Assembly (NCBI RefSeq): GCF_900105835.1 | Contig: NZ_LT629783.1 | Span: 1,426,001-1,490,000, forward strand | DNA: 64,000 bases | Direction: 5' to 3' | Source: Pseudomonas fragi | GTDB taxonomy: Bacteria; Pseudomonadota; Gammaproteobacteria; Pseudomonadales; Pseudomonadaceae | Shown here: positions 5,728 through 49,043 of the stretch, in pieces | Numbering within the stretch: the first letter of the stretch is position 1 | Layout of the letters: each line of letters opens with the position of its first letter | Made by a program: the position numbers and the translations under genes | The notes under the pieces: model-generated | What the model saw: the letters and a program-made list of their open reading frames with translations, nothing else | What the model was told of the DNA's origin: nothing | Databases searched by the model: none

Positions 5728-7308
5728 TTAGAGCTGGTTGAACAGGCTCAGCTGGGAGATTTTCACGAACGCCAGTTGCGAGGCTTCAAGCATGGCTTTC
5801 TGGAACGCCAGTTCAATGGACGCCCCCGCCATGTCGGTGTTGCCAATCGCCGCCGTGGTGGAGTCGTTGGCCAGGCCCAGGCTGATATTTTCATCGGCCT
5901 GGATATCCACCGCCTTCAAACGCGCACCAATCGAGCCCCGGGCGCTGTCGACGCCGGCACTGGCGTTTTTCAGGTTGCCGATCGCGGCGTTGATCGCGTC
6001 CTTTTGCGTTTGCTGGGCCAGCGGGTCTTTGTCGCTAGGGATCTCCAGCGCCTTGCGCAGCTGGCTGATGGTGTCCAGCGCGTTCTGGCTCTGGTGGTTG
6101 TTGCGGTTGACGACAAACTGGTCGCCCGCCTGCGGTGCTCCAGCGAAGTCGAACTTGATCCCGAGCGCACCGCCGTCAACAGTGCCCTGGGCAATCGACT
6201 TGCTGTCGGCGCTCAGCGGCTGGGCATACACCTCGTACTCGGTGGCGCTGGTAAATTTGATCACCGCGCCATTGCTCGGAAAGCTGTCGCCATAGGCCTG
6301 GGCGTCGGTCACCGTGGAATTGGTAATCTGCGCCGTCGAGCCGTTGCTCGGCGTGCGCGAGGTATTGATGGTGTCGGCCTTGGCCTCCAGGGTGAAGGTA
6401 CGCCCCGCCACTGCCGCATCGCGATCCGCCGCCGGGATATCCTTGAGGTTGGGGGTAATGTCGAACGAAACGCCACGCAGGCTGATGCTCTGCGAACCGT
6501 CCTTGATCGGGTCGAACACGCCATTACCCGCCACCTGCGAGGTCAGGTCGTTGCCGTCGCGGTCAGTCAGGGTGTACTGGGTGCTGCTGCTGAATTTCAG
6601 CGTATAGGGCTGGCCTTCGGCGAAGCTCTTGTTGAACACCGCGCTTGACGTAACCAGGCCGGCAGACACCGAGAGCTTGCCGTCATTGACGGTCGGCTCG
6701 CCATTGGCATCCACGCCGGGCACAAAAGTCGCCTGGGTACGCCCGGTATTGGTCGCGCCTTCCATGATGCTTCTGGCCGTATCGCTGCTGGCCAGGGTCA
6801 GGGTGTCGGAAACCTTCAGGTTAAGCTGGGTATCGTCACCCTGATAGCTGTAGGTGCCGTCATTGTTGCGAGTGTAAGGCGGTGTGTCGGTTTTGGAGCC
6901 GGAGAACATGTAGTTGCCCGCAGCGTCCTTGCTGTTGAGCAGGCTGAACACCTGCTCTTCAATACTGCCCAGTTCGTTGGCAATGGCCAGGCGATCGGCA
7001 TCGCTTTTACCGCTGCCTGCGCCCAGGGCCAGCTCACTGGCCTTTTGCAATGAGTTGTTGATGCTGTCGAGCACCGCTTCCTGGGCGCCCAGGGACGATT
7101 TGATGCTGTTCATATTGGTGCTGTACTGGCCCAGCATGTCTTTTTGCTGTTGCAGTTGCAGCAGGCGCGCCGCGCCGACCGGGTCATCGGCGGCGGTCTG
7201 GATGCGCACGCCGGAGTCGATCTGGCCCTGGGTCTTGATCACCGACGAGAAGTTGTTCTGGTAGGTGGCGCTGGTCGATTCAAAAAACTGCGAAGTTGAA
7301 ATACGCAT
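5728..7308 (-). CDS. flgL: Flagellar hook-filament junction protein FlgL (HAP3)
   Basis: 526 aa, much longer than enterobacterial FlgL (about 320 aa) because of an expanded central domain (roughly residues 160-420); this enlarged form is normal in fluorescent pseudomonads. The N-terminus MRISTSQFFESTSATYQNNF and the C-terminal helix ending SQLAFVKISQLSLFNQL are the coiled D0/D1 parts that join FlgK to flagellin. It starts 14 bases after the flgK stop, so the two are translated from one transcript. Confidence 0.95.
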   Translation of the reverse strand: MRISTSQFFESTSATYQNNFSSVIKTQGQIDSGVRIQTAADDPVGAARLLQLQQQKDMLGQYSTNMNSIKSSLGAQEAVLDSINNSLQKASELALGAGSGKSDADRLAIANELGSIEEQVFSLLNSKDAAGNYMFSGSKTDTPPYTRNNDGTYSYQGDDTQLNLKVSDTLTLASSDTARSIMEGATNTGRTQATFVPGVDANGEPTVNDGKLSVSAGLVTSSAVFNKSFAEGQPYTLKFSSSTQYTLTDRDGNDLTSQVAGNGVFDPIKDGSQSISLRGVSFDITPNLKDIPAADRDAAVAGRTFTLEAKADTINTSRTPSNGSTAQITNSTVTDAQAYGDSFPSNGAVIKFTSATEYEVYAQPLSADSKSIAQGTVDGGALGIKFDFAGAPQAGDQFVVNRNNHQSQNALDTISQLRKALEIPSDKDPLAQQTQKDAINAAIGNLKNASAGVDSARGSIGARLKAVDIQADENISLGLANDSTTAAIGNTDMAGASIELAFQKAMLEASQLAFVKISQLSLFNQL

Positions 7309-44641: not shown

Positions 44642-45592
44642 GTGGACAAAATTCTTCATCAACCACTGGGCGGTAATGAAATGCCGCGCTTCGCCGGCAT
44701 CGCCACCATGATGCGCCTGCCGCACCTGCAATCGGCCGCTGGCCTGGACGCCGCATTTGTCGGCGTGCCCCTGGACATCGGCACTTCGCTGCGCGCCGGC
44801 ACCCGCTTCGGCCCCCGCGAGATCCGCGCCGAATCGGTGATGATCCGCCCCTACAACATGGCCACCGGCGCCGCGCCCTTTGATTCATTGTCAGTGGCCG
44901 ATATCGGCGATGTGGCGATCAACACCTTCAACCTGCTCGACGCGGTACGCATCATCGAGGAGGCCTACGACGAAATCCTCGAACACAACGTCATCCCCAT
45001 GACCCTGGGCGGCGACCACACCATCACCCTGCCGATCCTGCGCGCCATCCACAAAAAGCACGGCAAGGTCGGCCTGGTGCATATCGATGCCCACGCTGAT
45101 GTAAACGACCACATGTTTGGCGAAAAAATCGCCCACGGCACCACCTTCCGCCGTGCCGTCGAAGAAGGCCTGCTGGACTGCGACCGCGTGGTGCAAATCG
45201 GCCTGCGCGCCCAGGGCTATACCGCCGAAGACTTCAACTGGAGCCGCAAACAGGGGTTCCGCGTGGTGCAGGCTGAAGAATGCTGGCACAAATCCCTGGC
45301 CCCACTGATGGCCGAAGTGCGCGAAAAAGTCGGCAACGGCCCGGTGTACCTGAGCTTTGATATCGACGGTATCGACCCGGCCTGGGCACCCGGCACCGGC
45401 ACCCCGGAAATCGGCGGCCTGACCACCATCCAGGCGATGGAAGTGATCCGCGGTTGCCAGGGCCTCGACCTGGTCGGCTGCGATCTGGTAGAAGTCTCGC
45501 CGCCCTACGACACCACCGGCAACACCTCGTTGCTGGGCGCCAATTTGCTGTACGAAATGCTTTGCGTGCTGCCCGGCGTTGTACATCGATAA
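44642..45592 (+). CDS. gbuA: Guanidinobutyrase
   Basis: 316 aa ureohydrolase that splits 4-guanidinobutyrate into GABA and urea. The binuclear Mn site is intact: His126 (GGDHTI), Asp149, His151 and Asp153 (HIDAHADVND), Asp240 and Asp242 (FDIDGIDP). The N-terminus MDKILHQPLGGNEMPRFAGI is close to my memory of P. aeruginosa GbuA rather than agmatinase (SpeB), and the GbuR-type regulator supports this. It starts at GTG. The symporter gene follows 95 bases later. Confidence 0.92.
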   Translation: MDKILHQPLGGNEMPRFAGIATMMRLPHLQSAAGLDAAFVGVPLDIGTSLRAGTRFGPREIRAESVMIRPYNMATGAAPFDSLSVADIGDVAINTFNLLDAVRIIEEAYDEILEHNVIPMTLGGDHTITLPILRAIHKKHGKVGLVHIDAHADVNDHMFGEKIAHGTTFRRAVEEGLLDCDRVVQIGLRAQGYTAEDFNWSRKQGFRVVQAEECWHKSLAPLMAEVREKVGNGPVYLSFDIDGIDPAWAPGTGTPEIGGLTTIQAMEVIRGCQGLDLVGCDLVEVSPPYDTTGNTSLLGANLLYEMLCVLPGVVHR

Positions 45593-45687
45593 GGACGTCT
45601 CTCAGGCGCCGTTGAACATTGCGTTTGGCGGCACCAAACCACCGTGCCAGCTGTATCCATAAAAAAAATAATCGGAGATTCGCCATC

Positions 45688-47067
45688 ATGGCTCTAGATC
45701 TACTGGTCGTCCTTATCTACGCAGCGGCAATGCTGGTGCTCGGCTACTACGGCATGCGCAAGGCCAAAACCCACGAAGACTATCTGGTTGCCGGGCGCAA
45801 CCTGGGCCCCACGCTGTATATGGGCACGATGGCCGCAACGGTACTGGGCGGCGCGTCTACCGTTGGCACCGTGCGCCTGGGCTATGTACACGGGATTTCC
45901 GGCTTCTGGCTGTGCGCCGCCCTGGGTTGCGGGATCATTGCGCTTAACCTGTTCCTGGCCAAGCCGCTGCTCAAGCTGAAAATCTTCACCGTCACCCAGG
46001 TGCTGGAAAAACGCTACAACCCCATGGCCCGCCAGGCCAGCGCGGTGATCATGCTGGCCTACGCACTGATGATCGGCGTGACCTCGATCCTGGCCATCGG
46101 CACCGTACTGGAAGTGCTGTTCGGCCTGCCCTTCTGGATCTCGGTATTGCTCGGCGGTGGCGTGGTGGTGGTGTATTCCACCGTGGGCGGCATGTGGTCG
46201 CTGACGCTGACCGACATCGTGCAGTTCGTGATCAAGACCGTTGGCCTGATGTTCGTCTTGCTGCCCATCTGCCTGTACCGCGTTGGCGGCCGGGACGAAC
46301 TGGTGAGCAAGTTGCCTGCGTCGAACTTCAGCTTCACCAGCATCGGCTGGGACACGATCATTACTTACTTCATGATCTACTTCTTTGGCATCCTCATCGG
46401 CCAGGACATCTGGCAACGGGTGTTCACCGCAAAAACCGCGAAAGTGGCCAAATATGCCGGCACATTCGCCGGGTTTTACTGCATTCTCTACGGCCTGACC
46501 TGCGCCCTGATCGGCATGGCCGACCATGTGCTGATCCCGGACCTGGACAACGTCAACAATGCCTTCGCCGCCATCGTCAAGGTGTCGCTGCCTGACGGTA
46601 TTCGCGGGCTGGTGATTGCCGCAGCGCTGGCGGCCATGATGTCCACCGCCAGTGCCGGCTTGCTCGCGGCTTCCACGGTACTGACCGAAGACCTGTTGCC
46701 AAGGCTGCGCGGCGGCAAGCAGTCGAGCCTGCGGATCAACCGCCTGTTCACCCTGCTCACGGGCATTGCCGTGCTGGGCATCGCCCTGGTGGTTTCGGAT
46801 GTGATCAGCGCCCTGACCCTCGCTTACAACCTGCTGGTGGGCGGCATGCTGGTGCCATTGATCGGGGCGATTTTCTGGAAGCGCGCCACCACGGCGGGCG
46901 CCATTACCAGCATGAGCCTGGGGTTTGTCACTGCACTGGCGTTCATGATCAAGGATGGCCTGGATGCCAACACGCCGATCTACTACAGCCTGGCTGTGGC
47001 GCTGGTCAGTTTTGTGCTGGTCAGCCTGCTGGATCGACGCCCTGCGGTTGTAGCCAGCGTGGCCTGA
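45688..47067 (+). CDS. Sodium:solute symporter (SSS family)
   Basis: 459 aa with about 13 membrane helices. Early GRNLGPTLYMGTMAATVLGG and GGMWSLTLTDIVQFVIKTVG are typical sodium:solute symporter segments. The place after gbuA suggests uptake of 4-guanidinobutyrate or a related arginine-pathway compound; this is inferred from context. The ATG at 45688 has GGAGATT upstream. Confidence 0.87.
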   Translation: MALDLLVVLIYAAAMLVLGYYGMRKAKTHEDYLVAGRNLGPTLYMGTMAATVLGGASTVGTVRLGYVHGISGFWLCAALGCGIIALNLFLAKPLLKLKIFTVTQVLEKRYNPMARQASAVIMLAYALMIGVTSILAIGTVLEVLFGLPFWISVLLGGGVVVVYSTVGGMWSLTLTDIVQFVIKTVGLMFVLLPICLYRVGGRDELVSKLPASNFSFTSIGWDTIITYFMIYFFGILIGQDIWQRVFTAKTAKVAKYAGTFAGFYCILYGLTCALIGMADHVLIPDLDNVNNAFAAIVKVSLPDGIRGLVIAAALAAMMSTASAGLLAASTVLTEDLLPRLRGGKQSSLRINRLFTLLTGIAVLGIALVVSDVISALTLAYNLLVGGMLVPLIGAIFWKRATTAGAITSMSLGFVTALAFMIKDGLDANTPIYYSLAVALVSFVLVSLLDRRPAVVASVA

Positions 47068-47274: not shown

Positions 47275-47757
47275 ATGACCCACTTCCACACGTATCTGGC
47301 CACTGCCGCAGTGGCCATTACCCTGGCCGTCGCCGGCACCACCGCTAAAGCCGATGTCACCACACTGACCTTCGAAATCGTCAACAACACCTCGGGACCG
47401 CTCACGCTCAAGCGTTCCGGCTGGGACCTGTCCTTGGCCGCTCCCGGCTTCTTTGATGTCGCCCCCTATGGCGAGCATTCCTATGAGGCAAACTACAAAA
47501 CCAACTTTGCTTACCCGCGCAAAACCCCGGCAACCCTGCGCGAAGTCATTGCTTATAGCAATGGCAATCGGGAATGCACCTTTTCCACGGCGTTGAAGGT
47601 TACCCAGTCATTTGGCACATTCACACCAACACTCCACTCAACCCGGGCAGCCAGTGCCAACTCTACCGGTGTCGAGGATGTGAAGTGCGAAGCCCAGGTC
47701 ACGGAAAAAACAGACGAAGCACCGCTAAATTACAGCGTGCGCTTCAGCATGGGCTGA
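47275..47757 (+). CDS. Secreted hypothetical protein
   Basis: 160 aa. A Sec signal peptide is clear (TYLATAAVAITLAVAGTTAKA, cleaved near ADVTTLTF), then a beta-rich domain of ~135 residues with LTFEIVNNTSGPLTLKRSGW and two Cys (Cys102-region NRECTF and DVKCEA) that could form a disulfide. I do not recognise a family; the FEIVNNTSGPL start recalls small secreted beta-sandwich proteins such as aegerolysin-type folds, but this is weak. It is monocistronic, with its own terminator. Confidence 0.75.
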   Translation: MTHFHTYLATAAVAITLAVAGTTAKADVTTLTFEIVNNTSGPLTLKRSGWDLSLAAPGFFDVAPYGEHSYEANYKTNFAYPRKTPATLREVIAYSNGNRECTFSTALKVTQSFGTFTPTLHSTRAASANSTGVEDVKCEAQVTEKTDEAPLNYSVRFSMG

Positions 47758-47776
47758 CAAGCCCAATAAGGAGAGG

Positions 47777-47800
47777 GGGCAGTGGCCACTGCCCTTTTTT
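47777..47800 (+). terminator. Terminator after secreted protein gene
   Basis: GGGCAGTGG/CCACTGCCC palindrome followed by six T, 19 bases after the stop. Confidence 0.88.
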
Positions 47801-47874
47801 GCGTTGCAAGCCGCAGGCCCTTGCACCAGGCAAGGGACGCTGGAGGTCAGGCTACCTGCCGCAAACAAGTGCCC

Positions 47875-48000
47875 TTAGCGGCGACGTTGCGGGCGGCGGC
47901 GCGGATCCTCGACAGGGATTGGCACAGGTTGCATTGGCGGCTCGATCAAACCTAGCGCTACGCCAAGGTCATGGAGCCAAGTTTGCAGTTTGTCTTTCAT
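47875..48000 (-). CDS. 41-aa small protein, PA1414/SicX-locus type
   Basis: 41 codons, starting MKDKLQTWLHDLGVALGLIE and ending in an Arg-rich tail (DPRRRPQRRR). The ATG is preceded by AAGGGGGAT, a strong Shine-Dalgarno. An Anr-type promoter lies upstream at 48055-48095. The position beside a LysR gene and ~2.3 kb from gbuA parallels P. aeruginosa PA1413-PA1422, where PA1414 is a strongly Anr-dependent small gene overlapping the SicX small RNA. The match is from memory of that locus and synteny; the RNA could be the functional product here too. Confidence 0.7.
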   Translation of the reverse strand: MKDKLQTWLHDLGVALGLIEPPMQPVPIPVEDPRRRPQRRR

Positions 48001-48054
48001 ATATCCCCCTTGGGGTCACTCTGGCGACGGGAATTCAGTGGTCGCTTCGTACAG

Positions 48055-48095
48055 ATAATAGTCCTAACTCCTACAAGATGCTTGCTTAAGGTCAA
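48055..48095 (-). promoter_or_regulatory. Anr/FNR-type promoter of the 41-codon ORF
   Basis: On the minus strand TTGAC-N4-AGCAA (48095-48082) matches the Anr consensus TTGAT-N4-ATCAA at 8 of 10 positions. A -10 TATTAT (48060-48055) follows, placing the start near 48048 and the Anr box centre at about -40.5, the geometry of class II FNR-activated promoters. Transcription would run into the 41-codon ORF after a ~48-base 5' UTR. Confidence 0.65.
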
Positions 48096-48128
48096 TGAAC
48101 TTTAGGCTAAGCCCTGCACCTGTATGAT

Positions 48129-49043
48129 TCAGGCCGGCAATGGAAGTTGCAGCGATAATTCAGAAGTTTGCGGCGAATGGGCCTGTTGCAGCTCTATCCA
48201 GGCATTCAGGTTGGCCCCTGTCATGCCTTTTCGCCACATCAACCATGTTGTGGCACTGGCAAAAGGTTGTTTCAAGGGGTGTATGCATACATTTTCACGC
48301 CCCGGCAAGCTGGCCAGCATCGAGGCCGGCATCAATGCCACCCCCGACCCTGCTGCCACGCACGCCAACATACCTTGATAGGATTCGATCTCCATCACCC
48401 GCCCCATTGCAGCCCGATCACTGGCGTACCAGGCTTCAAGCCGGGCTCGGTAAGAACAGCCCTGGCGGAAGGTAAACACTTCACGCCCCTGCACCTCCTG
48501 GGCGCGGCTAATTGGCGGATGATCCAGATCACTGATCAGCACCAGACGCTCTTCGCAGAACTCTACGCCATCCAGCCCGGCCAGCTCCAGCGGACCATCC
48601 ACCAGAGCTGCGTCCAGCCGCCCGGTCAGCAACCCCTCAAGCAACTCACCGCTGGGTGCCGATTGCACATGCAGATTCACTGCCGGATAAGTACGGTGAT
48701 AGCGGGCCAACAAGCTCGGCAAATGAATCGCCGCGGTACTGTACATCGTGCCCAGGGTGAATTTGCCCGCAGGCACGCCACCTTGCACCGCACCCAGCGC
48801 TTCATCATGCAGGGCGAATAGACGCGCGGTGTAGTCCAGCAGCACCTGCCCCGCCGGAGATAGCTGCAGGCGCTGACGCTCGCGCATAAACAGCTCAACC
48901 CCCATCTGCTCTTCCAGCTGTTTGAGGCGGGTCGACAAGTTGGAGGGCACGCGGTGCAAGCGTTCAGCCGCTCGGGTAATCGAACCCTCTTCGGCTACGG
49001 CCTGAAAAATACGCAATTGACTGAACTCCACACCATTCTCCAA
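48129..49043 (-). CDS. LysR family transcriptional regulator
   Basis: 304 aa. Helix-turn-helix at ~20-50 (GSITRAAERLHRVPSNLSTR), effector domain ~95-290. The protein resembles LysR regulators placed beside YbfB/YjiJ-type MFS carriers; here that carrier gene is divergent with a 91-base gap, so it is the likely target. No clear palindrome with T-N11-A was settled on. The start MENGVEFSQLRIFQAVAEEG has no good alternative. Confidence 0.88.
   Translation of the reverse strand: MENGVEFSQLRIFQAVAEEGSITRAAERLHRVPSNLSTRLKQLEEQMGVELFMRERQRLQLSPAGQVLLDYTARLFALHDEALGAVQGGVPAGKFTLGTMYSTAAIHLPSLLARYHRTYPAVNLHVQSAPSGELLEGLLTGRLDAALVDGPLELAGLDGVEFCEERLVLISDLDHPPISRAQEVQGREVFTFRQGCSYRARLEAWYASDRAAMGRVMEIESYQGMLACVAAGSGVALMPASMLASLPGRENVCIHPLKQPFASATTWLMWRKGMTGANLNAWIELQQAHSPQTSELSLQLPLPA

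Follow-up and report, generated by a model that had tools for sequence, protein, structure and literature searches.

The closest described counterpart of the locus treated here is sicX/PA1414 of Pseudomonas aeruginosa (Cao et al. 2023, PMC10247376), where PA1414 is given as 234 bp and its control by Anr was measured. According to section 7 of that paper, sicX reads covered the 5' end only, neither start-codon nor frameshift mutations of PA1414 affected the anaerobic-growth function, and a truncated allele with the 5' region only restored anaerobic growth; the paper also states that other Pseudomonas species have no sicX homologues, with a cut-off of >90% identity and coverage. The Anr consensus is printed as TTGAT-N4-ATCAA in PMC6110920, where an Anr-protected site matches at 6/10 positions, poorer than the box described below, and FNR sites in Escherichia coli are reported in PMC6343905 at -41.5 (class II) and at -61.5 or -71.5 (class I). 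For the protein, the NCBIfam model NF041729 ("PA1414 family protein") provides a name and no function, and no paper on the PA1414 small protein or the family protein was found in the open-licence literature.

The window is the whole 64-kb stretch of Pseudomonas fragi DNA that was analysed (genome G000). The window's clade (n = 10) was defined as the window together with the nine genomes that gave the best further DNA matches among 398 genomes of its genus; PA7 stands for P. aeruginosa, a typical genome of which was absent from the best 80 of 283 loci. A sequence-only reading had placed an Anr-type box, a TATTAT element, a Shine-Dalgarno sequence and a 41-codon open reading frame (ORF) here, and all four are present on the minus strand as described: from 48095, TTGACCTTAAGCAA, 21 nt, TATTAT, 54 nt ending in AAGGGGGATAT, ATG, and 41 codons in total.

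47875..48000, minus strand: ORF of 41 aa, PA1414 family protein (NF041729 match, codon conservation); ATG at 48000-47998, stop ending at 47875
48005..48011, minus strand: Shine-Dalgarno sequence AAGGGGG, 4 nt ahead of the ATG
48005..48015, minus strand: possible small hairpin CCCC-AAG-GGGG, which would pair the Shine-Dalgarno sequence (predicted fold, weak)
48048, minus strand: predicted transcription start (from the position of the -10 element)
48055..48060, minus strand: -10 element TATTAT, invariant in 10/10 genomes of the window's clade
48082..48095, minus strand: Anr/FNR-type box TTGACCTTAAGCAA at a class II position (8/10 match and spacing)
48096..48110, minus strand: conserved block TTAGCCTAAAGTTCA (14/15 columns invariant in the ten clade genomes, the other 9/10)

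The ORF matched NF041729 over residues 1-41 with 79.6 bits (cut-off, 28). The sequence-only reading had made its case depend on conservation of the ORF in related genomes, to be checked at the codon level, and this conservation was found: a family match was present in 204 of the 298 genomes examined within the taxonomic family (200 above the cut-off) and in 11 of its 19 genera, and the 45 pairs of the window's clade gave pS 0.456, pN 0.035 and pN/pS 0.076, while the same DNA read in the two other frames as controls gave pN/pS of 1.93 and 11.29. Set against the nearest relative found (G610), the window ORF has 11 synonymous changes and 0 non-synonymous ones; column conservation in the clade was 0.95, 0.99 and 0.77 at the first, second and third codon positions; and for the whole family pN/pS was 0.198 over the 1846 pairs whose pS was in the range 0.05 to 0.5. 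The start codon was ATG in 183/183 unique family ORFs when the start codon closest to the first position of the profile was taken by script, and a Shine-Dalgarno-like motif, from a permissive motif list, preceded 182/183. The substitution pattern indicates that the 41-codon ORF is a genuine protein gene under strong purifying selection. The peptide consists of a helical N-terminus, a conserved, Pro-containing core GVALGLIEPPMQPVPI and an Arg-rich tail. An AlphaFold model, of low confidence (mean pLDDT 69.2, pTM 0.31), has one helix (residues 2-15), the rest being flexible; an amphipathic helix is not claimed, since its hydrophobic moment was not above permutations, and the best match among solved structures, to DNA polymerase I (E 0.16), was taken as chance. 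A search of the Pfam library gave 0 families, although PF28105 is precomputed for 15/15 relatives of the PA1414 family protein. Note that one genome (G003) had two peptide matches (C1:4770915-4771037 and 6052-6150).

With transcription beginning at the predicted position 48048, the centre of the box would be at about -40.5, and the class II FNR geometry claimed by the sequence-only reading (gap of 21 nt to TATTAT) was thus reproduced. Anr itself is encoded in this genome (G000:C1:5067978-5068706), as in 10/10 genomes searched, with 89% identity to the P. aeruginosa Anr sequence used as query (PA7 matches it at 100%). AAGCAT stands 17 nt ahead of the -10 element, and 0 sites were found when 47500-48500 was scanned for the sigma-70 consensus, so that no -35 element was assigned; the box as a -35 element was ruled out, as it lies 29 nt from the -10 element.

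Read from 48095 to 48082, the box has 8/10 matches to TTGAT-N4-ATCAA. Because the 64-kb window holds 43 matches with two or fewer mismatches (14.9 expected), the sequence of the box alone is unremarkable, and the evidence for Anr rests mainly on position. The best Anr match of the window (9/10) is TTGATACTGGTCAA at 1061-1074. The frequency of such matches would suit the first alternative, in which the peptide gene is real and has another main regulator, the Anr-like box being coincidental and the block TTAGCCTAAAGTTCA at 48096-48110 the true operator. The block, just upstream of the box, is not explained by Anr, and it is more conserved in the clade than the box (0.993 vs 0.886). Half of the clade genomes also have a box poorer than 8/10: there are 8/10 matches in 5/10 genomes and 7/10 in four, and the left half is broken in one; GCAAGCAT, which contains part of the right half of the box, stands at the same place in L004, which is without the left half. 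Conservation in the clade is high from -110 to the gene end and low outside, the block, box, spacer, -10 element and leader ranging from 0.89 to 1.00 per column and the flanks having 0.66 and 0.53.

Against the alternative stand the measured Anr control of PA1414 in P. aeruginosa (PMC10247376) and the recurrence of Anr-like boxes in other genomes. The 210 peptide loci gave 186 upstreams after duplicates and short ones were dropped, and matches of at least 8/10 within 250 nt upstream were counted with shuffles for comparison: 22/24 in g30, the genus of PA7 (shuffles expect 1.0), 10/13 in g33 (0.6), 3/3 in g38 (0.1), 0/9 in g36 (0.4), 0/2 in two other genera (0.1), 4/9 in the clade relatives of the window (0.8) and 72/126 in the rest of its genus including the window (10.8). 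Thus g36 (L080, L082-L089) keeps the peptide without any 8/10 box in its nine upstreams. For the window's genus, 127 of 135 promoters were used (eight were without a -10 match), and the 57 matches of at least 8/10 at gaps of 0-89 nt from the -10 element were at gap 52 (40, which come from related species and are not independent), 50-51 (6), 41 (5), 21 (5) and 14 (1). Gaps of 21, 41 and 50-52 place the box near -40.5, -60.5 and -69.5 to -71.5, respectively, and such a canonical-gap match, with the gaps grouped after an earlier gap listing had been seen, is present in 56/127 promoters and absent from 71/127, eleven other chosen gaps having 0. Class I positions hold the box in 51 of the 56 good-box promoters, and the 8/10 boxes at gap 21 are all within the window's clade, with a 7/10 match there in some other species. 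Matches of 8/10 located 118-168 nt ahead of the -10 element were read as chance. With Anr-like boxes recurring at canonical FNR distances across the window's genus, and boxes present also in that of PA7, another main regulator appears unlikely, though it is the strongest of the alternatives; the window gene is probably switched on at low oxygen, and we infer that Anr exerts this control in P. fragi.

The neighbours of the gene in the window were assigned as follows.

44642..45592, plus strand: agmatinase-type gene at the gbuA position, which we take to be gbuA (context neighbour)
45619..47067, plus strand: sodium/solute symporter (context neighbour)
48129..49043, minus strand: LysR regulator of the PtrR family (NF047711, 458.8 bits; cut-off, 400)

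The order gbuA, symporter, peptide, LysR, MFS, EamA is common to the window and PA7 (L062). The synteny that the sequence-only reading saw with the PA1414 region therefore largely stands for the gene order, compared here from gbuA to EamA, and falls short in spacing, since the symporter of PA7 is flanked by about 2 kb and about 4 kb of additional DNA. In L100, which belongs to the window's genus, gbuR, gbuA, symporter, peptide, LysR and MFS are present, without an EamA match. Nine further loci were compared: symporter, peptide and EamA are common to L063, L066, L068 and L070; symporter, peptide, LysR and MFS to L090 and L094; and gbuR, gbuA, symporter and peptide to L101; in L078 and L083 a DTW gene is the only strong neighbour match. 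Since the synteny varies among these loci, only some members of the family are judged to have the locus at this place. The window locus is orthologous to the PA1414/sicX locus of P. aeruginosa.

In PA7, a GTG 99 nt upstream of the peptide ATG opens a frame of 77 codons, which with the stop codon make up 234 bp, and the P. aeruginosa proteins on record include a 77-aa form (P0001, 99% identical) and a 44-aa PA1414 family protein (P0003). At L102:2402-2632 the 77-aa frame consists of 33 residues from the SicX leader and the conserved peptide of 44 aa, and its start looks mis-annotated. In 18 of 24 non-redundant leaders of PA7's genus, the GTG position (GTA in four of the 24) does not share the frame of the peptide, and an in-frame stop interrupts the 99 nt in 12, so that the 33-aa extension is, from its reading frame, not a conserved protein. 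We infer from these leaders that the 5' leader of the locus is SicX and is followed by the peptide ORF, the two being separate parts. Because the GTG position is so often out of frame, a start-codon mutation at it need not touch the peptide; if the mutations of section 7 in PMC10247376 lie where we place them, the growth phenotype probably needs the leader, and that work probably never put the peptide by itself to the test.

The predicted fold of the leaders in PA7's genus has a stem whose loop region, GGAGAGUGGGA, is invariant, plus a second hairpin, with two-sided changes in 6/24 pairs of 14 aligned leaders (out of 22; L066, L058, L074 and five near-copies were left out), and the fold of the PA7 leader beats that of shuffles (z -3.05). 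A covariance model was built from 12 leaders (two more being dropped from the 14). It matched 24/298 genomes, all in PA7's genus (24/25 there, 0/273 elsewhere), where 12 of the 24 had supplied the model and the genome search used strict filters that lose weak matches. Weak matches were obtained in 7/8 loci classed as g33 (E 0.013 to 0.29), which by our reading rest on the second hairpin. The exception in PA7's genus is G190 (L072), which gave no SicX match; its peptide copy resembles those found in the genus of the window and has a 10/10 Anr box. Transfer or a mixed assembly may account for this.

The sequence-only reading had further proposed a conserved dual-function switch, in which one transcript would combine the base-pairing role of a SicX-like RNA with that of an mRNA for the peptide, with a covariance-model comparison to SicX as a check. 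The orthology of the two loci would favour it, as would a small leader hairpin at 48024-48045 with two-sided changes, predicted from 23/32 related leaders (of the nine left out, five were from a putida-like group). That hairpin was lost when all 32 leaders were used, when no pair showed a two-sided change, and it was rejected; the only hairpin left in the consensus was that on the Shine-Dalgarno sequence, which is weak, as it has four pairs only and no two-sided change. The SicX model, whose matches were confined to PA7's genus, gave none in G000 under the strict filters and none in the window when E values up to 1 were admitted. For the predicted window leader (about 48 nt, against about 109 nt in PA7) the fold does not beat that of shuffles (z 0.28), 0 intrinsic-terminator-like sites were found in 47500-48500, and Rfam at gathering thresholds gave 0 matches in the window.

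The known target of SicX is ubiUVT. A search with the PA7 UbiU (E <= 1e-80) matched 132/298 genomes and not the window genome; of U32-family matches, PA7 has three, and the window genome and the three clade relatives searched have one each. Peptide and UbiU occur together in 91 of the 298 genomes, the peptide only in 113, UbiU only in 41 and neither in 53, and a link between the two was rejected (odds ratio 1.04, p 0.90), so that they are independent. Even among the 24 genomes carrying the SicX leader, a UbiU match is absent in five. Pairing of SicX with ubiU was left unconfirmed, because the duplex energies did not beat shuffles: 197 to 282 of 300 shuffles were as good with the 14-nt loop and 26 to 254 of 300 with the 49-nt piece. 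A CCCAC[TC] site within 150 nt ahead of ubiU was found only in PA7 among six genomes and is suggestive only. With UbiU and SicX both undetected in the window genome, the dual-function switch is considered very improbable, and of the headline of the sequence-only reading the peptide and a promoter apparently of low-oxygen type are retained and the dual-function RNA is dropped. That the ORF is a decoy, its frame open by chance and the conserved product an RNA, would agree with the lack of effect of the PA1414 start-codon and frameshift mutations on anaerobic growth (section 7 of PMC10247376), but it is contradicted by the codon-level conservation with frame controls above 1, the 77-aa frame opens at a GTG whose position is mostly out of frame with the peptide in PA7's genus, and we give the decoy reading practically no credence.

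The reading that we consider likely as a whole is that the window carries a PA1414-family gene, orthologous to the sicX/PA1414 locus, which is transcribed under Anr as a short mRNA and has no SicX RNA. As oxygen falls, Anr would bind the box centred near -40.5 and make class II contact with RNA polymerase, and transcription would begin near 48048; the leader of about 48 nt with its strong Shine-Dalgarno sequence would then lead to the 41-aa peptide, which might have an accessory or regulatory function, docking on a low-oxygen partner that could be a protein, a membrane or an RNA. This docking role is the weakest step, a guess that we hold as rather doubtful. For the family, we lean, somewhat less firmly than for the window, to the view that the sicX locus is first of all an old gene for a small protein, spread across the family and under Anr in much of it, on which the SicX leader RNA arose in P. 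aeruginosa's genus, the protein being an unrecognised low-oxygen factor; SicX would have had an older job than ubiUVT, because the leader is kept in the five genomes without detected UbiU. The older and wider product of the sicX locus thus appears to be the small protein, and SicX looks like the leader RNA of one genus. The sicX locus proves to contain a protein gene that selection has maintained across the family, and its oxygen-type promoters occupy several of the canonical FNR positions; a widespread small protein without known function is now directly testable in harmless laboratory pseudomonads, and the original target of SicX becomes a question to ask anew.

Compared with the known systems, the window product is like the PA1414 family (NF041729) in its full-length match over the cut-off and in its similar length and motifs. 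It is like sicX/PA1414 of P. aeruginosa (Cao et al. 2023, PMC10247376) in the orthologous locus and the Anr-type promoter, and PA7 has the same conserved peptide ORF, there downstream of the SicX leader, whereas the window differs from the PA7 sicX in that no SicX RNA or UbiU was found, the box is elsewhere and the predicted leader is shorter (48 vs about 109 nt). Compared with FNR/Anr class II promoters, its box has only 8/10 matches and most good boxes of the genus are at class I positions, but the window promoter is alike in the centre of the box at about -40.5, the -10 element TATTAT and the absence of a -35 element.
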